This document shows, piece by piece, positions 7,741-24,485 of a stretch of DNA of 36,233 nt. The DNA lies in IMG/VR virus record IMGVR_UViG_3300030109_000124, positions 4,926-41,158 of that record; one strand, 5' to 3'. Numbering within the stretch: position 1 is the stretch's first letter; the number at the start of each line of letters is the position of its first letter. A program made the translations under genes and the position numbers. This DNA comes from a virus. The notes under the pieces were generated by a model. The model was not told where the DNA came from and made no database searches. It saw only the letters and a list, made by a program, of their open reading frames with translations.

Positions 7741-7943
7741 TGGATTTTGTTCTTAATATAATATCTGTAGTAACGGGTATTGTGTGTGCGGCATCGATTA
7801 TATGCAGCCTTACTCCTACACCTAAAGATGATGCGTTGATTGGACGGCTATATAAGATCGTTGAGATCGCAGCGTTAAACATTGGTAAGGCAAAAGAAGG
7901 AGCTACAGCTAATCCAATTAAGTTTGTCAAAAGGTCTGATTGA
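7740..7943 (+). CDS. Small membrane protein, holin candidate
   Basis: The protein has 67 residues. The first 25 or so are strongly hydrophobic (MDFVLNIISVVTGIVCAASI), giving one transmembrane segment. A conserved-looking TPTPKDDALIGRLYKIVE stretch and a basic tail ending KFVKRSD follow. Short phage proteins with this TPTPKDD pattern occur in marine phages next to lysis genes and are sometimes called holins, but I cannot confirm pore formation. It starts on the previous stop (TAATG) and ends in a TGATG overlap with the next gene. Confidence 0.6.
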   Translation: MDFVLNIISVVTGIVCAASIICSLTPTPKDDALIGRLYKIVEIAALNIGKAKEGATANPIKFVKRSD

Positions 7944-8189: not shown

Positions 8190-8480
8190 ATGAGCGATGG
8201 AAACAGTATTAAAATCCCAACGTGGGCGTTACCTATTGGTGCGGCTATTGTGTCTGGTGCAATAGCGTGGGGATCTATGCAGGCTCAAGCTTCAGCAACA
8301 GCTGACGAAGTCGCAGAGATTAAAGTAAAAGTTGAAGAAGCCGACACAACGGGAAAGTTGAACGCACAAGCGATAGAACAAATAACTCAATCGCTTGCAC
8401 AGATGAACGAGACAGCTCGAGACTCGGATGCAAAACTTCAGACGTTGATAGAGTTAATGATCAAACAAGCCGCGAATTAG
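8190..8480 (+). CDS. Membrane-anchored coiled-coil protein, lysis region
   Basis: The protein has 96 residues. It has one N-terminal membrane segment (WALPIGAAIVSGAIAWGSM, about residues 11-29) followed by an Ala/Glu/Gln-rich coiled coil up to the end (LIELMIKQAAN). The layout resembles inner-membrane spanins or holin-associated proteins, but a more convincing spanin pair lies downstream. The stop at 8478-8480 is followed by an open frame in the -1 frame whose protein-like sequence begins just before this stop. The true product may therefore be longer if a frameshift or a one-base sequence error is involved. Confidence 0.6.
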   Translation: MSDGNSIKIPTWALPIGAAIVSGAIAWGSMQAQASATADEVAEIKVKVEEADTTGKLNAQAIEQITQSLAQMNETARDSDAKLQTLIELMIKQAAN

Positions 8481-8758
8481 TAGATTACGACCCAGAAAAT
8501 CCTAATCTTTTTTGTGATTTACGTGAATGGAGAAATTTAGAGTTAGTTCAACCTCCATCTAAAAGGAAAAAAGTAGCTATAGGCTGGTTGAAATTTAACC
8601 ATCGACAATGCGGCTACGGAGCTCAAATTTATGTGCGAAACACTATGGCTAGAACATTAGGCACAGCGCACCAGATAGATGTTGAAATGTTGACATGGGA
8701 ACTAATCGCTCCTCAAGCTGAAAAAACTCAAGCGGTTAAACAAAAGAGAAGACTATGA
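8459..8758 (+). CDS. Protein-like open frame without a recognisable start; possible frameshifted extension
   Basis: The frame is open from 8336 to a TGA at 8756-8758. From about 8459 it reads like a real protein (DQTSRELVDYDPENPNLFCD, later KVAIGWLKFNHRQCGYG and ending KTQAVKQKRRL). It has no ATG, GTG or TTG near its apparent N-terminus; the first usual starts are TTG 8588, GTG 8633 and ATG 8645. Its stop overlaps the next ATG as ATGA, the coupling used by neighbouring real genes. One extra base at about 8459 would fuse it to the upstream 96-residue protein, giving roughly 195 residues. Options are a frameshifted fusion, an indel, a rare start or a shorter protein from 8588. Confidence 0.5.
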   Translation, partial: DQTSRELVDYDPENPNLFCDLREWRNLELVQPPSKRKKVAIGWLKFNHRQCGYGAQIYVRNTMARTLGTAHQIDVEMLTWELIAPQAEKTQAVKQKRRL

Positions 8759-9018
8759 CTCTTATGGTTTTTATGTTGATTATGCTTGATAGCGGAGGCA
8801 GTAAAACTGGTATTGAACTTGCGTTTAGAGAACTAACCAGTTGTCTTGAATATCGCGACGCTTTAGTGATGCAATCAACTCACATACACAACCTAGTTCT
8901 TGGTCGGAAGTCGAATAAATTCGACGCATATTGTGAGGTAAGACTTATACCTTCAACCGAAGCTGGTAAAGGCAATTATATATTTAGAGATCCAATCATT
9001 AGAAAAGAAGAGGACTAA
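8755..9018 (+). CDS. Small protein with hydrophobic N-terminus
   Basis: The protein has 87 residues. The first dozen residues are hydrophobic (MTLMVFMLIML), then DSGGSKTG, suggesting a signal-like segment or a short membrane anchor. The remainder is soluble with two cysteines (TSCLEYRDALV and DAYCEVRLIP) that could form a disulphide if exported. No known domain is recognised. The start overlaps the stop of the upstream open frame (ATGA) and the stop overlaps a tiny downstream ORF (TAATG). It lies among lysis genes, so a periplasmic accessory role is possible but unproven. Confidence 0.55.
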   Translation: MTLMVFMLIMLDSGGSKTGIELAFRELTSCLEYRDALVMQSTHIHNLVLGRKSNKFDAYCEVRLIPSTEAGKGNYIFRDPIIRKEED

Positions 9019-9095: not shown

Positions 9096-9405
9096 AAAAC
9101 TAGAACCAAAATCTCGTTATGCGGAGTACGACACAGACGGAGACGGGATAGTAAGCGATGAAGAACTCGCACGACATCAAGAAATGTTGCAGCTGGAGCT
9201 TCAAGAAGAAAAAGCCGATAGCCAGCGTAAAATGGCTTGGGTGGCTATGATCAGTATGTGCGTGTTTGCTTTACTTCCTCTTGCTCCTTTCGTTCCTGCT
9301 GATCGTCTCTCTACATTAGCTTCTCTAAGTGATATGTTGTTTTTATCTCAAGCTAGTGTTGTAGGTTTGTATTTCGGAGCTACCGCATACATGGCGAGAA
9401 AATGA
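9085..9405 (+). CDS. EF-hand membrane protein of the lysis region
   Basis: The protein has 106 residues. An EF-hand-like loop DTDGDGIVSDEEL (about residues 16-28) carries the D-x-D-x-D-G-x-(I/V)-x-x-x-E spacing of canonical calcium-binding loops. A charged helix follows, then two hydrophobic segments (about residues 50-68 and 83-103) separated by PADRLSTLASL. A protein of this design recurs next to spanins and endolysin genes in marine phages as I remember them. The two-span membrane part makes it a holin candidate, possibly responsive to calcium. That function is inference. Confidence 0.65.
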   Translation: MNAKKLEPKSRYAEYDTDGDGIVSDEELARHQEMLQLELQEEKADSQRKMAWVAMISMCVFALLPLAPFVPADRLSTLASLSDMLFLSQASVVGLYFGATAYMARK

Positions 9406-9848
9406 TAGGGTTTAAACTTAGTGCAGGATTAGGAATTGCTTTAATTGCTTTAGCAGGGGCTTTTAAACTTTACTACGATAAATCACAAGCAGAGCTTGAT
9501 TCATTTCAGTTACAGTTAGAGCGTTCAATTCAGAATGAAAAAATCTTAGAAAGTACGATTGCAGAACAAAATGAAAACCTTGAACAAACTCTTGAAAATC
9601 AAAAACTTATGATTGCTCAAGTAGAAAGATTGAGTGAAGAAAATCAGAAAGCTCAGGTAGAGGTTGACACTATTAGAAAAAAGTTCGCGAAGCACAATAT
9701 GGATGTGCTATCCCTAAGAAAGCCTAAGTTAATTCAGAAAATTATAAACAAAGGAACTAAAGAGGTGTTAACTGAACTTGAAAACATCACTGACCCACAA
9801 CAATTTAATGAAACTGATCCTGTTCTTACTGCTACTTCTGCTGGCTAG
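9402..9848 (+). CDS. Inner-membrane spanin-like protein (Rz-like)
   Basis: The protein has 148 residues. It has an N-terminal signal-anchor (about residues 4-22, LSAGLGIALIALAGAFKL), then a long coiled coil rich in Glu, Gln and Leu (residues 28-98), then an RKPKLIQKIINKGTKEVLTE segment. This is the inner-membrane spanin layout: anchored in the inner membrane with a periplasmic coiled coil that bridges to an outer-membrane lipoprotein. Its 3' end overlaps the lipoprotein gene by 41 bases in another frame, as in many Rz/Rz1 pairs. The start overlaps the previous stop (ATGA). It implies a Gram-negative host. Confidence 0.7.
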   Translation: MIGFKLSAGLGIALIALAGAFKLYYDKSQAELDSFQLQLERSIQNEKILESTIAEQNENLEQTLENQKLMIAQVERLSEENQKAQVEVDTIRKKFAKHNMDVLSLRKPKLIQKIINKGTKEVLTELENITDPQQFNETDPVLTATSAG

Positions 9849-10188
9849 TGGTTGTTCTCTTTTAGGATCTAAAAGAGAGATCCCAGAAGTTGCCCCTGTA
9901 GAGGTTATTACTGTTGTAAAACAGGCTCCTCTTTATCATCCTCCTCTTCCTAATAGTATTAGTTCTTCGCCTGTGGAATGGACGGTACTTACCCCTGAAA
10001 CAATGCAAGATTATTTAACTGATCTTGAAGAAGGAAATGCTCCAACTAACGCATGGTATTCTTTAACTACGAAAGGCTACGAAAACCTCTCGTATAATAT
10101 GGCTGAAATTAAACGATACATTAGACAAGTTTTATCTATAATTGACTATTACAGAGAATCCGATAACAAGGAGGAAGTCGATGAGTGA
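9808..10188 (+). CDS. Outer-membrane spanin-like lipoprotein (Rz1-like)
   Basis: The start chosen is the ATG at 9808, because it gives a compact lipoprotein signal: MKLILFLLLLLLASGC with the lipobox cysteine at residue 16. The upstream in-frame TTG at 9778 would only lengthen the signal. The mature part has proline-rich segments (EVAPVEVITVV, YHPPLPNS) followed by a VLTPETMQDYLTDLEEGNAP part and a helix with NMAEIKRYIRQVLSIIDYYR. Overlap with the inner spanin gene and the following endolysin gene supports an outer-membrane spanin partner. At 126 residues it is longer than a classical Rz1, so it may do more than span. Confidence 0.7.
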   Translation: MKLILFLLLLLLASGCSLLGSKREIPEVAPVEVITVVKQAPLYHPPLPNSISSSPVEWTVLTPETMQDYLTDLEEGNAPTNAWYSLTTKGYENLSYNMAEIKRYIRQVLSIIDYYRESDNKEEVDE

Positions 10189-23039: not shown

Positions 23040-23059
23040 GGACTAGCGTAACCAGTCCT
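23039..23059. other. Weak hairpin between convergent genes
   Basis: An inverted repeat AGGACT ... AGTCCT (six pairs, nine-base loop) overlaps the stop of the rightward gene and the stop codon of the leftward helicase gene. It is placed where a bidirectional terminator would be useful, but it is short and has no T tract on either side, so termination is only a possibility. Confidence 0.25.
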
Positions 23060-24485
23060 GCCACTTATCATCTCCTAGAACTTCCTGAGCAAGATCTAGT
23101 TTATTTCTTAGGGCATCGACAATCTTTTCGTCTATCGTATCTTTTGCTACAAGATCAACGTAGGTAACTTTATTAGTCTGCCCAATACGGTGTGCTCTAT
23201 CTTCAGACTGTAAGCGTTTCTCTAAGTCAAAATTGTTAGAGTAATAAATTACATTCTTAGCTTCGGTCAACGTAATCCCATACCCTCCTGTTTGTGTGTT
23301 TCCTACGAAAAACCGTAACGGGGATTCAGGGTCTTGAAAATCTCTAATAACACGCTCACGCTCATCAGGATGAGTGTCTCCGAAATAAGAAGATACCGCC
23401 TGTGTACCAAATACTTCGTGTAAGCTGTTTACTATTTCTACAATGTTCTGTCGATAGTTCGCCCAGATTATTACCTTTCCTTGCATCTCTGATATTACTT
23501 CGAACATTGAGTCAATACGGTTATTGTCTATAGGAATGTCTTTGTCATCGTCACTTTTAACGTGGCCGCATACTATCTGATGAAGTCTTAATAACTGTGT
23601 GAGTATATTCGTAACAGAAATCTGTTCCTGATCTTCTAGGATCGTGATTGCGTATTCTTTCAACTCGTTATAGAGCTTCTTCTGTTCAGCTGTTAATTCT
23701 ACATCTCTACGCTGATAAACTTTATCAGGTAAGTCTAGGCAGTCTTTCTTCAATACCCTGAAGGAAAACTTATCAAGTTTCGTGGTTAGTTCATCTAGGT
23801 TTCTAAATCCCACAACCTGTTTCACTGTTCTTCCTCCGAAGTATCGATTAACAACCTCACCGTAATGATTCTGAAAAGAGTAGAAGGAAGTAAATCCTAA
23901 GAGACTCCTTTCTAAAGTCTCTGTCTGACTATACAGGTCTAGTGGTGATTGAGTTATTGGAAACCCTGTTAGTATTCTTCTGAACTTAGCATCTTTACTA
24001 AGTTTTATGATCGCCTTAGTTCTAGCGGCTTTCGGATTCTTAATTGTTGTTGACTCATCAACGGCGAACATTGTTAAGTGACTGAAGATAAACTTCTCAG
24101 TGAACGTCACTCCTTTCTTTGAGCTAAACGCCTCTACGTTTATAACCAGGATCTTCAGTTTATCCATTACATCAAACAACGCGGTTAGATCTTCTTTCTC
24201 CTTCTTACGAGGATTAGGCGACCAAACAGCTACATGACGATCTATATAGTCAGGAAGGTGCGCAGGGATCTCCCTAGAAGCCCAGTTTTTATAGACTCCT
24301 TTAGGAGCAATAATAACTACTCCGTTGATGGCTCCTTTACCGTAAAGTATGCCAATCGTATCAATTAAGACTTTCGACTTCCCCGTACCCATCTCCATGA
24401 ACAGCGCATACTTCTCTTTTTTCCATGAGCGAAGCAACGCAGTGCGTTGATGTTCAAACGGTTCAGTCTTGAATTCGTATTTCAA
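23043..24485 (-). CDS. SNF2-family SF2 helicase/translocase
   Basis: The protein has 480 residues. Motifs in order are FEHQRTAL (Q-like), Walker A EMGTGKSK (31-38), IIAPKGVYKNW (Ia), DEST (143-146), LTGFPITQSP (III), KVIIWANYRQNI (IV), GGYGITLTEAKNVIYY (V) and DRAHRIGQ (about 429-436). This is the full SNF2-like ATPase set for translocation on double-stranded DNA. It is the only minus-strand gene in the window. The start is TTG with an AAAGGA ribosome site about ten bases upstream; no in-frame ATG lies before Walker A. In phages such proteins may remodel or unwind DNA in replication or recombination. Its promoter must lie in the gap at 24486-24789. Confidence 0.85.
   Translation of the reverse strand: MKYEFKTEPFEHQRTALLRSWKKEKYALFMEMGTGKSKVLIDTIGILYGKGAINGVVIIAPKGVYKNWASREIPAHLPDYIDRHVAVWSPNPRKKEKEDLTALFDVMDKLKILVINVEAFSSKKGVTFTEKFIFSHLTMFAVDESTTIKNPKAARTKAIIKLSKDAKFRRILTGFPITQSPLDLYSQTETLERSLLGFTSFYSFQNHYGEVVNRYFGGRTVKQVVGFRNLDELTTKLDKFSFRVLKKDCLDLPDKVYQRRDVELTAEQKKLYNELKEYAITILEDQEQISVTNILTQLLRLHQIVCGHVKSDDDKDIPIDNNRIDSMFEVISEMQGKVIIWANYRQNIVEIVNSLHEVFGTQAVSSYFGDTHPDERERVIRDFQDPESPLRFFVGNTQTGGYGITLTEAKNVIYYSNNFDLEKRLQSEDRAHRIGQTNKVTYVDLVAKDTIDEKIVDALRNKLDLAQEVLGDDKWQDWLR

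Follow-up and report, generated by a model that had tools for sequence, protein, structure and literature searches.

The locus analysed here raises a simple question: how is a stretch of DNA that reads like protein, and that carries no ordinary start codon, translated? The window is the whole stretch of DNA that we analysed, 36,233 nucleotides (GC 42.5%) taken from a virus record of 41,158 bases. A sequence-only reading of the window had noted the frame and offered three explanations for it: an indel, an unusual recoding event, or a rare start. Our comparisons indicate that the frame is very probably the 3' portion of a single gene, reached by -1 programmed ribosomal frameshifting. Recoding therefore survives, in its classical type, while the indel is excluded and a rare start is disfavoured.

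Two open frames and a slippery heptamer

The upstream gene (8190 to 8480, plus strand), which we call the 0-frame gene, is an open reading frame of 96 amino acids with an N-terminal hydrophobic segment (residues ~9-28) and a coiled coil, the latter judged by eye. Relative to this gene, the -1 frame is open from stop to stop between 8336 and 8758 on the plus strand (140 codons). Its earliest ATG, GTG or TTG is a TTG at 8588, already inside the conserved domain described below, so the earlier description of an open frame with no ordinary gene start was accurate. So too was its report of an ATGA overlap: the TGA of the -1 frame (8756-8758) is overlapped by the ATG at 8755 of the next gene (8755 to 9018, plus strand, 87 amino acids). 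The two open frames share 145 nt (8336-8480), and a G_GGA_AAG slippery heptamer (8351 to 8357, plus strand) begins 15 nt downstream of the -1 opening, in 0-frame phase (ACG GGA AAG). The sequence-only reading placed the junction of the two parts at ~8459 and found no slippery heptamer there. None indeed lies near 8459, but the in-phase GGGAAAG stands ~100 nt upstream, where it was overlooked because the search centred near 8459, and the slip site at 8351-8357 replaces that junction.

Most ribosomes translating 8190-8480 would make the 96-residue protein, with its N-terminal export or membrane segment and coiled coil. Some would shift backwards by one base at G_GGA_AAG and read on in the -1 frame from 8357 to 8758 (plus strand, 133 codons plus TGA, with base 8357 read twice), and the predicted joined product has 56 + 133 = 189 residues. 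This longer form would consist of the shared first 56 residues, a polar linker of ~41 residues, and a conserved helical C-terminal domain of 92 residues (8480 to 8755, plus strand) that is delimited by alignments and a structural model and bears a conserved Cys pair at domain residues 12 and 44. A fusion with the upstream coiled-coil protein had been anticipated at ~195 residues; the fusion is retained as a prediction and its length is revised. Within the 123-nt overlap downstream of the heptamer (8358 to 8480, plus strand), the 0-frame encodes the coiled coil and the -1 frame the linker. This overlap is long, and we counted its length against frameshifting. When the window alone was subjected to synonymous-codon shuffling, an open run this long had P = 0.02 and a heptamer within the open run P = 0.003. 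Because its second half has no start, such a gene is bound to be overlooked or cut short by ordinary gene calling, and a conserved frameshift here would correct it.

Conservation of the layout and rival explanations

Relatives were collected by scanning IMG/VR with the -1 domain (the best 80 of 96 loci) and with the 0-frame protein (78 loci), and a distant-first alignment took in 80 of 190 relatives. For the locus table, we started from 208 motif placements and, after removing repeats and those with less than 250 nt upstream, retained 111 distinct loci; the motif used missed one divergent member, L150. The 111 loci contain 88 distinct domain sequences, and conservation past the 0-frame stop is strong. 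The earlier reading had called for comparison with relatives, and the two-frame layout is kept in every one of the 111 distinct loci with the domain: over the final 120 nt of the 0-frame gene none has a stop in the -1 frame, and every slip site falls within the open -1 stretch. A sequencing or assembly indel, or a true frameshift mutation that broke the gene, would account for the fact that one added base joins both parts. The same layout recurs, however, in 111/111 loci, among them a locus on another contig (L002) whose stretch is 100% identical to that of the window, and the protein is strongly conserved after the 0-frame stop. Because the layout is conserved throughout, we regard an indel as excluded for all practical purposes.

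A classical X_XXZ_ZZN heptamer lies inside the open overlap at 87/111 loci: GGGAAAA at 37, GGGAAAG at 27, AAAAAAG at 19, AAAAAAC at three, and AAAAAAA at one. The other 24 loci (including L003, L016, and L103-L110) have only an A_AAG tetramer. Twenty-two of these form one group with GTA AAG, running on as GTA AAG GAG/GAA, where sisters show GTA AAA AAG, and L038 and L079 have GCA AAG at the aligned place; in L150, which is without a classical heptamer, A_AAA stands at the corresponding position. A_AAG is a common tetramer and is perhaps a candidate slip site at these 24 loci. In E. coli constructs that include a pseudoknot, A_AAG shifts more readily than any other tetramer (PMC4066793), and G_GGA_AAG is highly shift-prone in the same organism (PMC5009743).

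We compared these motifs with chance by synonymous-codon shuffling of 73 representatives with less than 92% ungapped identity. An in-phase heptamer was observed in the open overlap of 55 of the 73 representatives, against 3.3 expected, and for an open length at least as great as that observed the median per-locus P was 0.023. Codon choice at the slip site is uniform: Thr-Gly-Lys is coded ACG GGA AAR at all 64 loci that encode this tripeptide in the 0-frame, while in the remainder of the same reading frames ACG supplies 54/311 Thr codons (17%) and GGA 72/254 Gly codons (28%). Since these loci are related, 64 loci do not amount to 64 independent events. More independent evidence comes from the differing slip positions across lineages; the kind and position of the heptamer vary by lineage (-123 to -132, -138, -144/-147, and -165), and the -1 opening shifts accordingly. 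The same two-frame gene, with ACG GGA AAA, also occurs on L230, a contig assigned to a Sphingobacteriales metagenome-assembled genome, which is either a phage contig in the bin or a prophage.

Substitutions were compared between GGGAAAR-group pairs of equal spacing, 213 pairs at offset 129 and 364 pairs at offset 132. In the overlap, the mean differences at 0-frame codon positions 1, 2, and 3 were 2.1, 1.5, and 12.8 at offset 129 and 2.3, 1.5, and 12.0 at offset 132; in the domain, they were 4.2, 41.0, and 13.1 and 3.3, 31.2, and 9.2, respectively. The substitution phase flips at the 0-frame stop, from position 3 before it to position 2, which is position 3 of the -1 frame, after it. From these phases, the constrained frame is the 0-frame until its stop and the -1 frame beyond, and the overlapping part of the -1 frame seems to serve as a linker needing only to remain open. 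Natural controls are provided by seven relatives in two lineages (L112-L115 and L140-L142), which keep the 0-frame gene, lack the domain, and have five to seven -1 frame stops within the final 150 nt. The next gene in L140-L142 begins ATGA directly on the 0-frame stop, and by eye we took it as a counterpart of the gene at 8755. Since L112-L115 have a closed -1 frame with no domain after it, we took their in-phase TTTAAAC and GGGTTTA heptamers as chance. By sequence comparison, the domain is lost together with the open -1 frame.

Protein homology turns strong at the 0-frame stop, a pattern also expected if the domain were translated separately, from a non-canonical start (ATT, ATC, ATA, CTG, or GTA) or by reinitiation at that stop; the existence of a distant homologue as a stand-alone gene, and the want of a classical heptamer in L150 and the A_AAG group, point the same way. 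The codon at which homology starts, however, is mostly not a start codon (CTA at 64, TTA at seven, ATA at six, and GTA at one of the 78 readable among 80 relatives). No ATG, GTG, or TTG precedes the domain in the -1 overlap at 109/111 loci, the exceptions, L060 and L097, having theirs upstream of the heptamer, and 17/111 loci are without any of seven start-like codons (CTG, ATT, ATC, and ATA included) between the slip site and residue 12 of the domain. Separate translation would, moreover, leave the open upstream -1 frame and the heptamers unexplained, and would yield a domain with no export signal, in contrast to the stand-alone homologue of the MW202825 type. We judge it improbable. Polymerase slippage is known at runs of six to seven A, and such runs occur in the AAAAAAG-type lineages, where transcriptional slippage might produce a fused mRNA. 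The window and 63 other loci carry GGGAAAR instead, with runs of only three to four that do not favour slippage, and we consider this explanation very improbable.

Ribosomal frameshifting accords with an in-phase motif (X_XXZ_ZZN or Z_ZZN) in the overlap, a -1 open reading frame that lacks a start and is open from the slip site, and conservation beyond chance, all of which we find here. The two-frame layout, the slip site, and the frame-specific selection are established from sequence comparison, and on this footing we infer that slipping itself very probably occurs. Stimulatory RNA structures and upstream Shine-Dalgarno-like elements are common with -1 frameshifting but are not always present in bacteria. 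No support was found for a conserved RNA structure downstream of the slip site in the GGGAAAR group, and the window's 123 nt after the slip site fold no better than shuffles (z -0.68); in the AAAAAAG group, a stem, GACAG...CUGUC, follows the slip site. An apparent Shine-Dalgarno-like peak ~9 nt upstream of the slip site in the GGGAAAR group was matched by synonymous shuffles (mean P 0.71) and was set aside.

The two predicted products and the C-terminal domain

The hydropathy of the 0-frame protein peaks at 1.46 over 19 residues, a borderline hydrophobic segment that is followed by AQA-SA and could serve either as an anchor or as a signal that is cleaved off. With anchor and cleaved signal alike, the domain of the fused product would be predicted to be exported, and the shared N-terminus probably places it in the periplasm. 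The 0-frame protein has weak PHROG matches to a holin (E 4e-5) and to Rz-like spanins (E 0.005-0.009); it has no Pfam match above the cut-off, and a separate Rz-like gene is present in the window. Neither tblastn of the 0-frame protein nor tblastn of the gene at 8755 returned a match, and megablast of window positions 1-25000 against phages returned none. Matches of one relative (L096) to Pseudomonas phages (E ~2), of which those annotated with a function lie in terminase genes, were taken as chance.

Eleven domain columns are invariant among 49 aligned sequences, two distant ones included: C12, E16, P26, R29, A33, W36, N40, C44, N54, G61, and A63. The structural model of the domain is helical with a mean pLDDT of 74.0, only one of five models being that confident; it replaced a first model with a pLDDT of 59.6. 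The window domain has no PHROG or Pfam match and no PDB match by sequence, a PHROG search of 20 domain members gave no consistent match, and the stand-alone homologue likewise matches no known family. Comparison of folds with the PDB gave weak matches to helical arrangements that are common (Foldseek E of at least 3.8; VIA-align Z of at most 5.3), and we did not retain them. Three BFVD models of uncharacterized proteins from uncultured Caudovirales phages (A0A6J5QTX3, A0A6J5PMF2, and A0A6J5Q980) resemble the domain with a Foldseek probability of 1.00, a TM-score (query) of 0.64-0.66, and 19-33% identity, at E-values of only 0.0045-0.11. Unlike the fused form, they are listed as proteins of 90-103 amino acids.

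In L231-L233 and in MW202825 (UOF82387), the domain is encoded by a stand-alone gene that starts at a GTG. Identity is 23-24% for L231 and L232. The GTG overlaps the upstream stop, which we read as TGA in MW202825, and the surroundings are lysis-like, as in the window, with a lysozyme farther downstream. The L231 protein begins VRWWWISIILLCVMFARSA-EN, and the N-terminus of the stand-alone homologues is, judged by eye, typical of a signal peptide; these genes differ from the window in having their own GTG and this N-terminus, and no frameshift fusion. The annotated start of UOF82387 (L155:2935-3207) appears too short, and an upstream GTG adds the signal-peptide-like N-terminus.

Gene neighbourhood and comparison with known systems

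Downstream of the gene at 8755 lie a small membrane protein gene (9085), an Rz-like gene (9402), a lipobox-bearing Rz1-like gene (9778) that overlaps the Rz-like gene in a different frame and was named by eye, and a lysozyme gene (10142, Pfam E 2e-13). The spanin-type pair region spans 9402-10188 of the window. The gene at 8755, for which PHROG gave no match and Pfam none above the cut-off, encodes a product with a short hydrophobic start and two Cys, possibly another exported partner. A homologue of phage stabilization proteins is also found near the locus, and ~4 kb downstream there is a gene that gave weak matches to tape-measure proteins. The locus does not occupy the place of a tail assembly chaperone, among tail genes and directly upstream of the tape measure; its neighbours are of lysis type. 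At loci long enough to tell, relatives keep the 0-frame gene (85/85), the gene at 8755 (104/104), the gene at 7943 (73/78), the lysozyme (61/86), and the stabilization protein (55/62), while Rz is present in only 4/94, for which reason the spanin pair seems exchanged. Farther away, the window encodes an SNF2/helicase-C protein on the minus strand (23043-24485, the longest minus-strand frame in the list of open reading frames) and a pyrimidine dimer DNA glycosylase family gene (PF03013; 29590-30114).

These neighbours, together with the weak PHROG matches, are the basis for a tentative proposal that the domain might serve the lysis module, for instance as a subunit that times lysis or regulates the holin or endolysin, in a dose that depends on how often ribosomes slip. 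More speculatively, a domain that is stand-alone and exported in a distant phage could have been captured by a lysis-module membrane protein as an optional extension made by frameshifting, such that a fixed minority of complexes would carry a periplasmic timer or antiholin-like domain and frameshift dosage would set lysis; we think this full scenario rather unlikely as it stands. Under it, lineages would separately have placed GGGAAAR, AAAAAAN, and perhaps A_AAG at different positions. A conserved lysis-module case in widespread environmental (marine) phages would, if true, be a new use of frameshift-set dosage. The family is, in addition, a natural series, from no domain through GGGAAAR, AAAAAAN, and A_AAG only to a stand-alone gene with a signal peptide, and it offers a means to study how frameshift sites arise and move.

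Known recoding in tailed phages mostly concerns virion assembly genes. The slip mechanism is well known; its use for an exported protein beside cell-bursting genes appears to be new. Our search of the non-subscription literature turned up no description of a frameshift fusion in a lysis-module membrane protein, and the word new is provisional for that reason. Passages of PMC10885494 and PMC5009743 treat tail, capsid, and IS cases, and those of the former also count lysins with the genes in which a frameshift is known. Passages of PMC9671017 report GeneMarkS-predicted frameshifts near holin genes of Streptomyces phages, passages of PMC13313380 concern an IS3-type transposase, and a passage of PMC9936078 notes a possible slippery sequence in exclusion genes.

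Three known systems invite comparison with the predicted gene. The heptamer of lambda G-GT is GGGAAAG, and the two systems are alike in heptamer type, in direction, and in an N-terminus common to the short and long products. Lambda G-GT is a tail assembly chaperone made by -1 frameshifting (PMC5009743); the window gene differs in not lying between tail tube and tape measure genes, in its N-terminal hydrophobic segment, and in having Rz/Rz1-like genes, lysozyme, and small membrane proteins as neighbours. Expression of the MS2 lysis gene is linked to frameshifting (PMC10885494), and there too a reading-frame shift is tied to a lysis function, but the MS2 lysis protein is a separate product and that of the window gene a predicted fusion. 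A further parallel is with phage C-terminal extensions made by frameshifting, such as Ig-like domains on coat and tail proteins and the extension of the T3/T7 coat protein, where an optional domain is added to a fraction of the protein, as predicted here, and relatives occur with and without it (reviewed in PMC5009743). The window gene departs from these in its carrier, a small exported or membrane coiled-coil protein adjoining lysis genes, and in its cargo, a helical, Cys-paired domain without a Pfam, PHROG, or PDB match.
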